From Meiothermus sp. (GTDB lineage Bacteria > Deinococcota > Deinococci > Deinococcales > Thermaceae): a stretch of 64,000 nt of DNA. Of the stretch, positions 17,531 through 24,817 are shown one piece after another; position 1 is the stretch's first letter; each line of letters opens with the position of its first letter. The stretch covers positions 1-64,000 of the forward strand of contig BPIL01000006.1 of the NCBI GenBank assembly GCA_026004095.1. Direction: 5' to 3'. A model generated the notes under the pieces. The model saw only the letters and a list, made by a program, of their open reading frames with translations. It was not told the DNA's origin and made no database searches. A program made the position numbers and the translations under genes.

Positions 17531-18529
17531 CTAGATGGCTACTGGCTTTTGCAGCAGTTCCGCAATCTGCACGGCATTTAAAGCCGCTCCCTTGAGCAAC
17601 TGGTCTCCCGCCACGAAGAAATCCAGCCCATTATCAAAAACCAGGCTCTTACGGATGCGCCCCACCTCCACATTAAACTTGCCGGTCGCGCTCAGGGGCA
17701 TGGGGTAGCGTTTGGCAGCGGGGTCGTCGACCAAATCCACCCCCGGGGCTGCGCTTAGCACCGCTCGAGCTGCCTCCGGACTGACGGGTTTTTCAAACTC
17801 CACCGTAACCGCCTCGGAGTGCACCCGCAAGGTTGGAACCCGCACAGCCGTGCAGGAAACCCGGATCTGCGAGTCCTCCATGATCTTCTGGGTTTCCCAC
17901 AGCACCTTCATCTCCTCTTTGGTGTAGCCGTTTTCCTGGAAGGCATCAATCTGCGGAATCACGTTGAAGGGCAGGGGGTGGGCGAAGGTTTTGTGTTCAA
18001 CCGCACGCCCGGCCAGAAACTCTTTGGTGCCCTGCAACAGCTCCTCCATCCCGCTCGCGCCCGCCCCCGAAGCACTCTGGTAGGTGCTCACAATCACCCT
18101 TCGCGCCTTGAAGGCTTTGTGCAGGGGATGAAGGGCCATCAGCAAAATAGCTGTGGTGCAGTTGGGGTTGGCAATGATGTTCTTGTGACCCCGGATGGCG
18201 TGCGGGTTGATCTCCGGTACAATCAGGGGTACGTCCGGCTCATAGCGAAAGGCCGAGGAGTTGTCGATCACCACCGACTGGGTGGCCCATATGGGCGCGT
18301 ATTGCTTAGAGATACTGCTGCCCGCACTCGCCAGCACCACATCCACCGGCAAAGGGGCCTCCGGCAGGGCCTCCACAGCGATTTCCTTTCCTCTAAAAAC
18401 CATGCTTCGGCCTGCGGAGCGCGCCGAGGCGTACAGCCGCAGCTCCGACACCGGAAAGTCTCGCCGCTCGAGCACACTCAGCAACTCTCTACCAACCGCC
18501 CCAGTCGCCCCTACAATCGCGATTTTCAT
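17531..18529 (-). CDS. asd: Aspartate-semialdehyde dehydrogenase
   Basis: Reduces aspartyl phosphate to the semialdehyde, the branch point for threonine, methionine, isoleucine and lysine/diaminopimelate. The 332-residue protein has the NADP-binding [13 protein letters not shown] (residues 3-15), the active-site Cys in NPNCTTA (about 128) and [12 protein letters not shown] with substrate-binding Arg and His downstream (about 220-235). The start is ATG 18529 with GAGGTG 6 nt upstream; the GTG three codons earlier lies inside that site. The 5' region (18546-18664) carries its own promoter, a threonine-rich mini-ORF and a terminator, suggesting attenuation. Confidence 0.95.
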
Positions 18530-18545
18530 AGCCTTCACCTCTCTT

Positions 18546-18573
18546 CAACAAAAAACCTGCCAGAACTGGCAGG
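18546..18573 (-). terminator. Attenuator terminator in asd leader
   Basis: On the minus strand CCTGCCAG-TT-CTGGCAGG (18556-18573) is followed by TTTTTTGTTG, a canonical intrinsic terminator, 16 nt before the asd start codon. Its position between promoter and gene means read-through must be regulated for asd to be expressed. Confidence 0.85.
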
Positions 18574-18574
18574 C

Positions 18575-18600
18575 AGCGGCAGCTCGAGCGAGCCGCCGCT
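18575..18600 (-). promoter_or_regulatory. Leader hairpin at the stop codon of the Thr-rich peptide
   Basis: Minus-strand AGCGGC...GCCGCT (18595-18600 with 18575-18580), with inner pairs closing on a 4-nt loop, begins at the last base of the leader-peptide UAA. It is separated by one base from the terminator hairpin. It is the candidate pause/anti-antiterminator element. The exact competing antiterminator fold is not obvious by eye. Confidence 0.6.
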
Positions 18601-18626
18601 TAGGTGGTGGTGGTATACCAAACCAT
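18600..18626 (-). CDS. Threonine-rich leader peptide of asd (MVWYTTTT)
   Basis: ATG GTT TGG TAT followed by four consecutive ACC codons and TAA. It starts 9 nt after the -10 box, so it would be translated from the very 5' end of the mRNA without a ribosome binding site. Four tandem Thr codons directly before a hairpin and U-tailed terminator upstream of a threonine-pathway gene match the logic of amino-acid attenuators such as thrL. No homologous leader is known to me in this lineage. It is too short to be supported by coding statistics; the case rests on arrangement. Confidence 0.65.
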   Translation of the reverse strand: MVWYTTTT

Positions 18627-18635
18627 CTGCGAACA

Positions 18636-18664
18636 ACAATATAAGCTACTCAAACAAAAGTCAA
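18636..18664 (-). promoter_or_regulatory. asd promoter (TTGACT-17-TATTGT)
   Basis: Minus strand -35 TTGACT (18659-18664), 17-bp spacer, -10 TATTGT (18636-18641; an overlapping TATATT at 18638-18643 would have a 15-bp spacer). It lies 30 bp after the PBP stop codon and gives a start point within a few nt of the leader-peptide ATG. Confidence 0.7.
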
Positions 18665-18693
18665 ACCCAGCCCTGCTCAGCCAACACAGCGCC

Positions 18694-20940
18694 TCAGTTG
18701 CAACGATACTCACCAACCCGCGCCTCGGGCACCTGCAGCCATGCCACCTGGGCGGTTGGGGTCTCCGGGGAAGCCAGACAGCCGGTCACACGGTTGACCG
18801 CGATGGTGAGGTAAGCCCGGCTGGAGGCCACCACCGGGCCAGGACGGGCGATGTAGGTAGGCTGGGGCGGGGCCTCCAGCACAGCAGATGGGGCACCAAC
18901 CGCCTGGGTGCGCTGTACCTGGCGCGCCGGAAACACGGCCGCAACCCCACTGGAACTGATATTCCCGGTCAGCAGGTCGAAGGTGACCGTAGCCAGCCCC
19001 GGGGGTTGTGGAAAATCGCCGGCGGGGCGGCCGCGCAGGGCCTGTTCCACAAAGTCACGCCAGATGGGCGGGTTCACCACCGAGCTGCTGGGCTCCACGC
19101 CGCCCATGCGCTGGGGTTTGTGGTCATCCCGCCCGACCCAGAGCGTAGCCACCAGACCACGGGTGGCCCCAGCAAACCATAAGTCGATGGCCTCGTCGCT
19201 GGTTCCAGTTTTGCCGCCCACAATACGCCCAGGGATGCGCGCCGCCGAGGCCAGGCTCGAGCTAAAGCCAGGTGGCACGTCGTAGACGTAGCCTTTGAGC
19301 ATGTCCCAGATCTGATAGGCCACCTGGGGCGTCCAGAGCAGCACTTTCTTGGTCTCGGGCTGGTAGATTATGCGGCCATTGCTATCCTCAACCCGAAGCA
19401 CCAGCCGGGGCTCCACCCAGTAGCCCCCATTGACAAAGCTGGCGTAAGCGGCGGCCAGGCCCATGGGCGTGATCTCGGCGCCGCCCCCAATGGCGTTGGC
19501 CAGCACGGCCGTATTGCCGGTCAGGCGGAAGCCGGCGGTGCGTAGCTTATCGCCCAGGCGCTGCACCCCGATGGCCTCGGCGGTGCGAATGGCCGGCAGG
19601 TTCAACGAGCGATCCAGGGCATAGCGGATGCTAACCGGGCGGTCGAGGTAGCGGCCATCGAAATTTTTGGGCCGCCACACCCCCTGGGGCGTGCGGTACT
19701 CGATGGGTGAGTCGCGCACGGTGGTGGCCTGGTTCCAGCCAGCTTCCAGGGCGACCCCGTAAGTAAAGGGTTTGATGGCCGAGCCGGGGCTGCGCCAGGC
19801 CTGGGTGGCCCGGTTGAACTCACCCTCGGTGCCTGGCCGGGCCCCCACCATAGCCAGCACCTCACCCGAGTTGGGCTCGAGGCCCACCAGCGCGAGCTGG
19901 GCCTGATCGGGTAGGCGGCGGCCCGTCACCGCCTTTTCGGCAGCGGTCTGCATCCGGAGATCCAGGGTTGTAATGATGCGCAGGCCACCCTGTTCGCGCA
20001 GCTTTGCTGCACCTATCTTTTCTTTCAGGTAGCGCTGCACCTCGTACACAAAATAAGGCGCCAGGCGCACATTCCGCTCAGGTACGATCCGCACACTGGG
20101 GTCGACCAGCCTGGCCCTTTTGAGGTTGCCATCTTCGTCATATTCTGCTTCCCAGCCCTTGGGCACCAGCTTATAACGCCACGCCGCATCGGCCTCGGCC
20201 TGGCTGATCCACCCCTCCGAGACCATGTTATTCAGCAACACCCGCATGCGCCGTCGGGTTGAGCTGAGATCCAGGTAACGGGTGTTCGGCGCGGGAATCA
20301 GCACGGCCAGGTAAGCCCCTTCGGCCAGGTTGAGCTCGGACGGCTCCTTACCAAAATAGGCCTGGGCCGCGGCCCAGATGCCCTGTGCGTTGCCGCCCCA
20401 GGGCACCACGTTCAGGTACATCTCCAAAATTTCCTCTTTGGAGTAGCGCCGCTCAACCTGAATAGCCAGCGGAAATTCCTTCAGTTTGCGCTCGAGGCCG
20501 CTGATACCCCGCCGCTCGAGGGCCAGATCCCTCAGCAGCGTGTTCTTGACCACCTGGGTGGTGATGGTGGAGCCCCCTTGCAGATCACCGCGCAAGGTGT
20601 AGTAAACCCCGCCCAGCAAACGAATGAAATCTATGCCGTAGTGCCTGAAAAAGCGCTGATCCTCCGAAACCACCACCGCCACGGCCGCTGCGGGGGATAC
20701 CTCGGAAAGCCGCACCAACTGCCGGGCAATAGCCCGCCCATCCTCCACCGAGGCCAGATCGGCAATGGGGATACCGTCGCGGGTGTAGAAGGTAGAGGTG
20801 GCCGTGAAGCGCAAATCTTCAAGGGTCTCGAGGCTAGGCAGGTCGCGCAGGAGCAGCCAGGTTACGTACCCTGCGGCTCCCAGTGCGCCCAGAAACCCTG
20901 CAAGTAGCACCAGCCGCAAAACCTGAAGCAATCTTCGCAC
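18694..20940 (-). CDS. Class A penicillin-binding protein (PBP1A-like)
   Basis: Bifunctional peptidoglycan glycosyltransferase/transpeptidase, 748 residues, anchored by one N-terminal membrane helix (about 10-33). The GT51 domain shows EDQRFFRHYGID (about 93-104), the GGSTITTQVVKN segment (about 120-131) and RKLKEFPLAIQVE. The transpeptidase domain has the catalytic Ser in RSPGSAIKPF (SxxK), an SxN-like site and KTGTSD. GTG start 7 nt after a TAAACT box. The C-terminal tail of about 80 residues is low in complexity. Upstream neighbour of asd on the same strand, but asd has its own promoter. Confidence 0.93.
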   Translation of the reverse strand: MRRLLQVLRLVLLAGFLGALGAAGYVTWLLLRDLPSLETLEDLRFTATSTFYTRDGIPIADLASVEDGRAIARQLVRLSEVSPAAAVAVVVSEDQRFFRHYGIDFIRLLGGVYYTLRGDLQGGSTITTQVVKNTLLRDLALERRGISGLERKLKEFPLAIQVERRYSKEEILEMYLNVVPWGGNAQGIWAAAQAYFGKEPSELNLAEGAYLAVLIPAPNTRYLDLSSTRRRMRVLLNNMVSEGWISQAEADAAWRYKLVPKGWEAEYDEDGNLKRARLVDPSVRIVPERNVRLAPYFVYEVQRYLKEKIGAAKLREQGGLRIITTLDLRMQTAAEKAVTGRRLPDQAQLALVGLEPNSGEVLAMVGARPGTEGEFNRATQAWRSPGSAIKPFTYGVALEAGWNQATTVRDSPIEYRTPQGVWRPKNFDGRYLDRPVSIRYALDRSLNLPAIRTAEAIGVQRLGDKLRTAGFRLTGNTAVLANAIGGGAEITPMGLAAAYASFVNGGYWVEPRLVLRVEDSNGRIIYQPETKKVLLWTPQVAYQIWDMLKGYVYDVPPGFSSSLASAARIPGRIVGGKTGTSDEAIDLWFAGATRGLVATLWVGRDDHKPQRMGGVEPSSSVVNPPIWRDFVEQALRGRPAGDFPQPPGLATVTFDLLTGNISSSGVAAVFPARQVQRTQAVGAPSAVLEAPPQPTYIARPGPVVASSRAYLTIAVNRVTGCLASPETPTAQVAWLQVPEARVGEYRCN

Positions 20941-23699: not shown

Positions 23700-24779
23700 C
23701 TACACCCTCGAGGCCGGCTTCGGCATAAGGTCTTGGATGGCCTGCAAAAACTGCTCAAACTGGACAAAGTCGAGCTGCTGTTCGTTGTCGGAGAGGGCCA
23801 CTTTAGGGTTGGGGTGCACCTCGACATGCACCCCATCCAGGCCGGCTGCCAGAGCGGCTCGAGCCAGGGGGGCCAGCAGATCCCGCCGCCCCGCCGCGTG
23901 GGTCACATCCACAATCACCGGCAGGTGGGTGAGCTGTTTGGCCAGGATGGCCGCCGATAGATCGAGGGTGTTTCGGGTCCACTTTTCATAAGTGCGGATG
24001 CCGCGCTCACACAAGATCACCTCGGAATTACCCTGCGAAAGTATGTATTCAGCGCTGTAAAACCACTCCTCGATGGTCTGGGCAAAACCCCGCTTGAGCA
24101 GCACCGGCTTGTTGGCTTTGCCCACCTCACGCAGCAGGGCAAAGTTCTGCGCATTGCGGGTGCCTACCTGCAGGATGTCGGCATACTGGGCCACCCGTTC
24201 CACATCGCGGGTATCCATCACCTCGGTAACAAAAACCATCCCGTTGGCATCGGCAGCCGCACGGCCTATCTTGAGGGCTGGCTCCCCCATACCCTGAAAG
24301 CCATACGGGGAGGTGCGGGGTTTGTAGGCCCCACCGCGTAAAACCTTCACCCCATGCCCGGCCAGAAACTTAGCGGTGAGCAGCATCTGTTCTTCCGATT
24401 CAATGGAGCAGGGCCCAGCTACCAGCACCTTATCCCGGCCAAAGACCACATCTCCAACCCGAACTGTGGTGTCCTCGGGCTTGACCTGGCGTGAGTAGAG
24501 GAATTTTTGTTTATCTTGCTGCTCTTCTAAGTCCAGCGAGGCCTTGAAAATTTCCTTGAATAGCCGCTTGATGGTCTCAGCCGGGTAGGGCCCCGGGTTC
24601 TCCCGGGTCAGGTAGGCCAGCATCTCCTCTTCCCTTTTGGGGTCGTAGTGGGGCAGGCCCAGCTCGGTTTGCACCCGGCCGATCTCGCTCACCAGCTTGC
24701 CGCGTTCAGAGAGGAGACGGAGCAGTTCGCGGTTGATCCGGTCAACCTCTTTGCGCAGGTCTAAGATTCGCTGATCCAT
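23700..24779 (-). CDS. aroF: Chorismate mutase / 3-deoxy-7-phosphoheptulonate synthase (type Ib fusion)
   Basis: First step of the shikimate pathway (PEP + erythrose-4-phosphate to DAHP) fused to an AroQ chorismate mutase; 359 residues. Residues 1-85 form the mutase helices (LRKEVDRINRELLRLLSERGKLV), which in relatives also act as the prephenate/chorismate feedback domain. Residues about 100-355 form the DAHP synthase barrel with AGPCSIESEEQ, the LRGGAYKPRTSPYGFQG region, LKRGFAQTIEEW, ILCERGIRTYEK and a metal-binding HAAGRRDL. Promoter directly upstream, separate from tatC. Confidence 0.93.
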   Translation of the reverse strand: MDQRILDLRKEVDRINRELLRLLSERGKLVSEIGRVQTELGLPHYDPKREEEMLAYLTRENPGPYPAETIKRLFKEIFKASLDLEEQQDKQKFLYSRQVKPEDTTVRVGDVVFGRDKVLVAGPCSIESEEQMLLTAKFLAGHGVKVLRGGAYKPRTSPYGFQGMGEPALKIGRAAADANGMVFVTEVMDTRDVERVAQYADILQVGTRNAQNFALLREVGKANKPVLLKRGFAQTIEEWFYSAEYILSQGNSEVILCERGIRTYEKWTRNTLDLSAAILAKQLTHLPVIVDVTHAAGRRDLLAPLARAALAAGLDGVHVEVHPNPKVALSDNEQQLDFVQFEQFLQAIQDLMPKPASRV

Positions 24780-24786
24780 GAACCCA

Positions 24787-24817
24787 ATGGTATACCAAAG
24801 TTGTCTTTTACAGGCAA
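24787..24817 (-). promoter_or_regulatory. aroF promoter (TTGCCT-17-TATACC)
   Basis: Minus strand -35 TTGCCT (24812-24817) and -10 TATACC (24789-24794), 9 nt before the ATG. An overlapping TACCAT (24787-24792) ends 7 nt before it. No ribosome binding site, so leaderless expression is likely. Confidence 0.55.

Follow-up and report, generated by a model that had tools for sequence, protein, structure and literature searches.

In the 64-kb window (the whole 64,000-nt stretch of Meiothermus DNA that was analysed), the asd gene for aspartate-semialdehyde dehydrogenase occupies positions 17531..18529 on the minus strand (Pfam PF01118/PF02774, NCBIfam TIGR01296). Asd feeds the synthesis of threonine, as well as methionine and isoleucine. 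Between asd and its upstream neighbour on the same strand, a penicillin-binding protein gene ending at 18694 (Pfam Transgly and Transpeptidase), lies a series of closely packed elements, read on the minus strand. The –35 hexamer TTGACT (18659..18664) and the –10 hexamer TATTGT (18636..18641) are separated by a 17-nt spacer, and 9 nt downstream of the latter the ATG at 18626 opens a leader ORF (18600..18626; ATG GTT TGG TAT ACC ACC ACC ACC TAA), encoding MVWYTTTT and a stop. An 11-bp hairpin, hp1 (18575..18600), supported by sequence and covariation, begins at the stop codon, whose last base is its first base; it is followed by an intrinsic terminator (18550..18574), seen in the sequence and the alignment, with a CCTGCC/GGCAGG stem and U6. 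Codons 2–5 of the leader are overlapped by the box GGTATACCAAA on the plus strand (18612..18622; TTTGGTATACC on the leader strand), a putative GntR-FCD operator present in 20 of 22 asd leaders.

An earlier note on this DNA had described the promoter, the 9-nt gap, the mini-ORF MVWYTTTT and the hairpin at its stop, and all of these are borne out by the sequence. The six U of the terminator also stand, its 8-bp stem being 7 bp plus a closing G–U pair (stem 18574–18555, T6 at 18555–18550), and the distance to asd, given as 16 nt, is to be corrected to 20 nt from the last U to the ATG at 18529 (11 nt to an in-frame GTG). Scanning both strands of the window for the same anatomy, with criteria chosen post hoc, returned this single place. 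At the gathering threshold Rfam yielded only a tRNA in the window and no leader family or T-box; a permissive scan of 18400–18760 gave two matches far under gathering scores, neither of them a leader family.

Conservation of the asd leader in relatives

The asd leader of Meiothermus is a real, conserved and compact regulatory element, going beyond chance because it is the sole place found in the window scan, is conserved in 22 of 22 genomes and has a covarying hp1. The asd gene was located in all 50 genomes of the family and in 103 of the 111 genomes of the phylum set. The leader block is conserved in 22/22 Meiothermus, g2 and Calidithermus genomes, that is, in all non-Thermus f1 genomes. In these 22 loci we observe a –35 element TTGAY and a –10 element starting with TA, with a spacer of 17 nt (20 loci) or 18 nt (two loci), and the start codon is always 6 to 9 nt past the –10 hexamer, which fits a (near-)leaderless start. 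The stretch ATGGTTTGGTATACC occurs in exactly one copy per genome in 20 of the 50 family genomes (18 of the genus of the window and two of a sister genus), always upstream of asd. In two Calidithermus leaders the first half is replaced (GTG AGC CTG GCT CGC ACC ACC ACT ACC TAG, encoding MSLARTTTT), yet behind this different start come the same Thr run, stop hairpin and terminator. As judged by eye, the element keeps company with asd though the upstream coding sequence varies: for example, a hisF-like frame ends there at locus L012, and the penicillin-binding protein gene in the window. Conservation of the Thr run and the terminator in close relatives, proposed earlier as a test of the attenuator, thus holds in 22/22 leaders, as each of them keeps the mini-ORF with its Thr run, the hairpin at the stop and the terminator upstream of asd.

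Pairing and covariation were counted in an alignment of the 22 leaders. In hp1, 99.2% of cells are paired, five of the 11 pairs have changed on both sides, and the stability was matched by none of 5000 between-species shuffles. The terminator, located between the leader ORF and asd in all 22 loci, is nearly invariant, with 92.2% of cells paired and changes on both sides in two of seven pairs; in 12/22 leaders the innermost pair does not form. In four of five measures the structure as a whole scores better than every one of 500 shuffles, the exception being the count of further pair types (127/500 shuffles).

A covariance model built from the 22 leaders and run over 111 genomes produced five hits outside the family (E ≤ 1.3e-5). 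All three f3 genomes with an asd match have diverged leaders before asd (MNVWYTTTTTI, MQFWNTTTTTK and MSQRFNNTTTI, each followed by a stop). The asd leader of the f2 genome G052, MKLASHICNIMITP, contains Ile, Met, Ile and Thr and no Thr run. In another f2 genome, G051 (L190:1430-1620), ilvA is preceded by an Ile-run leader, MKIQSSTPQIIIF, with a stop hairpin and a terminator, in the same layout as at asd. Weaker model hits (L179–L182, L192) were dropped, being tRNA-like or apparently coding sequence by eye. On the Thermus side (28 genomes: 27 g4 and one g5), inspection by eye of about 200 nt upstream of asd revealed no such element. Neither was a Thr leader found in 21 of the 48 f4/f5 genomes with an asd match whose upstream regions were covered (all nine of f4 and 12 of 39 of f5; 19 by script, two by eye), the one script hit, MLIPC in L214, being not of the asd-leader kind. 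The hom-thrC region of the window's genome (G000) has no such leader; this genome was read, and two more hom regions were scanned by script. As a separate observation, genome G055 (L187, downstream of 1587) carries a short duplicated asd start just before the real asd.

The palindromic box and its gene contexts

The first 17 nt of the MVWY leaders are invariant and include TTTGGTATACC, the complement of GGTATACCAAA. In 18 genomes of the genus GGTATACCAAA has 154 matches, compared to six for the reversed control; this number is a sum of per-genome counts in which full palindromes are counted twice. In the genome of the window the box is found at seven places: at a GntR-FCD gene, ilvB, leuC, gltB, a gene for E1 alpha, asd and aroG. 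The last of these, at 24789 in the window, is the second copy there (24788..24799, plus strand), just upstream of a DAHP synthase/chorismate mutase gene (23703–24779, minus strand). At leuC the box is the full TTTGGTATACCAAA, and at ilvB it is GGTATACCAA, both between –35 and –10; at gltB it is inside the first codons of the gene, as in the asd leader (among the regulon loci, L337:1000-1680 and L339:991-1030). The earlier note had missed this box in the MVWY codons, common to amino-acid biosynthesis genes.

Gene contexts were read in 40 site stretches from seven genomes, excluding the asd and ilvB sites and with the sites of G009 partly taken. Twenty-seven of these are at gntR, leuC, gltB, E1 alpha, metH, aroG or pntA genes, two (L365, L375) precede a gene of the homocitrate/isopropylmalate-synthase family with a Lys-codon leader, and 11 lie by no nameable gene or inside coding sequence. 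A gntR gene with the box 24–27 nt before its own start is present in four of the seven genomes (G000, G017, G009, G005). The palindromic box is hence common to related genes and to the gene of a regulator. An early doubt about an operator, raised since the 10-bp palindrome alone has six places in the window's genome vs. two for the control, was reversed by the enrichment of the 11-mer GGTATACCAAA and by its gene contexts. These contexts point to an apparent GntR-FCD amino-acid regulon in Meiothermus, and we infer a GntR-FCD protein as the binder of GGTATACCAAA from one circumstance, the position of the box before the gntR gene in four of seven genomes. Literature searches found no publication on this regulator or box.

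Such a site could in principle be the only real control of asd, the mini-ORF, hairpin and terminator acting as a fixed brake that sets a low constant read-through and senses no threonine. We consider this unlikely. It would account for the strong enrichment of the box, its presence at other amino-acid genes and its inclusion in the invariant start of the MVWY leaders, and for our finding no RNA switch in the asd leaders (see below). Yet the loci from which the box is absent (Calidithermus L017/L020 and G057) retain the Thr run, hp1 and the terminator, and a fixed brake has no need of a Thr run or of a covarying stop hairpin.

Leader folding and the Thr codon run

Sister leaders in the genus and the order match the pathway of the gene they precede, with WWW at trpE, Ile, Leu and Val codons at ilvB, and the Ile run before ilvA in G051. 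The trpE leaders (L289–L305, L292) are short ORFs with WW(W) just before the stop, e.g., MVSIALVKGWWWPG. The ilvB leaders (L271–L288) are (near-)leaderless Ile/Leu/Val ORFs, e.g., MLLPSSLILVVVGLIIGPAGDLV, recognized by script in 16 of 18 loci and by eye in L276; L286 ends at the contig edge. Two leaders with two Lys codons, MIRSAKKSSAGGLV in L365 (minus strand) and MTLSAKKPTAGELV in L375:730-1500, carry a terminator and, within the promoter, the box, and the genes that follow belong to the homocitrate/isopropylmalate synthase family, as fragments below curated cut-offs. At leuA (18 loci) we found no leader of its own, the gene being placed behind another gene.

For the leaders, we modelled a ribosome that blocks the RNA up to 13 nt past the A site, stepped it along from codon 5 as far as the stop codon, and calculated how probable the pairing of the terminator is at each position (P). 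At 37 °C P stays at or above 0.87 in 21 of 22 asd leaders under the blocking ribosome, the lowest value being 0.59 in L015; at 60 °C, with fewer ribosome positions, it is at least 0.84 in 20/22 (0.65 in L016 and 0.70 in L015). P is at least 0.89 in four asd leaders of f2/f3 and in the leader of ilvA. Folding in both states, suggested in the earlier note, thus revealed no alternative state in the asd leaders at either temperature, with dips in L015 and L016, and no mutually exclusive antiterminator set by ribosome position was detected in the 22 leaders by a test of limited sensitivity. The positive control was provided by trpE: out of 17 loci, one had no motif and in one a wrong stem was picked, and in all 15 evaluable leaders P is at most 0.36 when the A site holds a Trp codon and at least 0.94 with the ribosome at the stop. 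By this modelling the Meiothermus trpE leaders show a classical antiterminator/terminator switch. In the absence of any ribosome, P at trpE is near zero in L304 and L305 and about 0.6 in L301 and L302. The ilvB leaders were mostly negative (16 of 18 loci tested, three of the 16 below 0.5), as was the Lys-type leader of L365 (P ≥ 0.95); hence either the test can miss switches, or these leaders lack one.

We also looked for alternative helices directly. Pairings of 5–7 bp between the 3′ arm of hp1 and the 3′ arm of the terminator are possible in 20/22 loci, with a mean energy of –8.6 kcal/mol, compared to –13.9 kcal/mol for the terminator stem; pairing arms from one species has no advantage over pairing arms from different species (2535 of 5000 shuffles gave energies as low), and the same holds for the GCTGCC/GGCAG pairing put forward in the earlier note. 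The 3′ arm of hp1 with the 5′ arm of the terminator reaches a mean of only –2.2 kcal/mol. Pairing of the leader with the 3′ arm of hp1 seemed better at first glance (1/5000 shuffles as low), but was rejected as a conserved element, as the value becomes 48/5000 without Calidithermus and the predicted pairings vary by species. Control via the asd Shine–Dalgarno sequence was discarded as well: in folds extending past the asd start at 60 °C, its accessibility shows no consistent change with ribosome position.

The proposal of a classical attenuator with an alternative antiterminator is therefore unsupported, the high terminator probabilities in 21/22 asd leaders standing against switching in 15/15 at trpE. 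We regard it as distinctly improbable that the leader is of the Yanofsky type after all, with an antiterminator overlooked by equilibrium folding (due to kinetic folding, a pseudoknot or assistance by a protein). The order of Thr codons, stop, hairpin and terminator is that of the Yanofsky type, the genus has classical switches at trpE, the helix between the two 3′ arms could form in most loci, and the ilvB outcome attests to the limited sensitivity of the test; this helix, however, is matched by half of the shuffles and is much weaker than the terminator stem, and pairing with the 5′ arm is weaker still.

The Thr run itself is coding. At least three consecutive Thr codons are found in 22/22 f1 and 3/3 f3 leaders, which are 7–9 codons long in the window and its close relatives, and codons 5–7 are Thr in 20/20 MVWY leaders, the eighth codon being Thr, Ser, Ala, Pro, Gly or Arg, or missing. 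From the third Thr codon onward, ACC is used 25 times, ACT 16 times, and ACA and ACG once each; the share of ACT among Thr codons is 25/87 in the leaders vs. 5/95 in five sampled genes of the window. Start codon and hp1 are 29 nt apart in 11 loci, 26 nt in eight, 30 nt in two and 24 nt in one. A nucleotide element (a CCA repeat, or a DNA or RNA motif) in place of a coding run is highly implausible: many loci are CCA-repetitive and weak pairing with the GGUUUGG start is possible, but all four bases occur at the wobble position while the first and second codon positions are kept, G057 has ACG ACG ACG as its Thr run, 19/22 loci have a distance to hp1 of either 26 or 29 nt, values that differ by three, and an in-frame stop is at the base of hp1 in 22/22.

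Proposed control of asd and comparison with known systems

Two features make the asd leader unusual: no antiterminator could be detected in it, and its first codons coincide with a repressor-type box. With moderate confidence, we propose two controls on asd, a GntR-type site over the start of the leader and a minimal Thr-codon attenuator that would be (near-)leaderless. In the first layer, a GntR-FCD regulator, probably encoded by the box-bearing gntR, would bind the GGTATACCAAA palindrome just past the start point, making asd part of a general amino-acid regulon (leuC, ilvB, gltB, aroG, metH, asd). In the second, transcription would begin at the leader AUG or a few nt from it, and a 70S ribosome would initiate there with no Shine–Dalgarno sequence and read three to five Thr codons before the stop. 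With ample Thr-tRNA the ribosome would finish and depart, hp1 and the terminator would form, and most transcripts would stop short of asd; with scarce Thr-tRNA it would stall on the Thr codons and keep the base of hp1 open, allowing read-through by more polymerases. Judging from the sequence features, threonine control of asd is likely. Of the Thr-codon attenuator of the earlier note, the anatomy and the conservation stand, and the classical type with an antiterminator is unsupported.

Several observations count against this two-layer scheme: the antiterminator that folding did not reveal, hom-thrC and the Thermus-side asd genes that have no element, G052 that has no Thr run, the box-bearing gntR in just four of seven genomes, and the 11 of 40 sites by no nameable gene. 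The sensing geometry is also poor, since the Thr codons abut the stop, so that a stalled and a terminating ribosome cover nearly the same RNA. A bolder version, which we offer tentatively as possible, turns this geometry into the mechanism: a minimal attenuator that needs no antiterminator, with an operator in its first codons. With the control codons touching the stop, and with hp1 starting right there and bordering on the terminator where the RNA leaves the polymerase, a ribosome that had initiated leaderless would, by its position, open or close hp1 and act on termination directly. If so, one stretch of roughly 80 nt would be read by a DNA-binding protein, the ribosome and RNA polymerase, and the matching layout before ilvA (the Ile run of G051) would turn such attenuators into a class within the order. 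Being so small, the leader lends itself as a natural setting in which to ask if termination can be governed by a ribosome with no antiterminator, and may serve as a model for a protein-binding site overlapping a coding leader, as well as a pointer to the putative GntR-FCD amino-acid regulon of Meiothermus.

In the thr operon of Escherichia coli, thrL is a longer leader, led by a Shine–Dalgarno sequence and having an alternative antiterminator. The asd leader resembles it in the Thr codons of an ORF before a terminator and in the aspartate pathway, and differs in its 7–9 codons, probably near-leaderless start, antiterminator that was not found, and lack of an Rfam leader match. The trpE leaders of Meiothermus share with asd the order of a short ORF with its control codons, WW(W), just before the stop, a terminator and the gene; trpE switches in 15/15 evaluable leaders, compared to 0/22 asd leaders with P below 0.59. 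The box resembles FadR-type (GntR-FCD) operators, being a short palindrome and preceding a GntR+FCD gene by 24–27 nt as a putative operator. Attenuation of lysine genes has reportedly been studied in Thermus. Our searches of open-licence literature found no publication describing a Thermaceae leader for asd or threonine, and as far as these searches show the element is new as such.

As a putative leader peptide on a leaderless mRNA, it is less novel than the earlier note claimed. Excerpts of two reports describe such leaders in Actinobacteria: in Corynebacterium glutamicum transcription of ilvL starts one nt from the start codon (PMC11857589), and Streptomyces lividans has leaderless leuL, trpL, ilvL, metL and thrL leaders, with thrL before thrS (PMC8079986). 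A computational survey, also in excerpt, gives about 39% leaderless genes in Deinococcus-Thermus (PMC3160421), so that, given the actinobacterial cases, a leader of this kind is expected here. The actinobacterial leaders, as these excerpts present them, are like that of asd in being short ORFs with codons of the pathway, followed by hairpins, some with a terminator; their transcripts begin on the start codon itself or one nt away, which the asd leader would share if its predicted start is right. The asd leader differs from them in having no detectable antiterminator, in a start that overlaps a repressor-type box, in a Thr run before asd with the control codons directly at the stop, and in belonging to another phylum; it would thereby carry control by leaderless leader peptides beyond Actinobacteria, into Thermaceae and the aspartate pathway.
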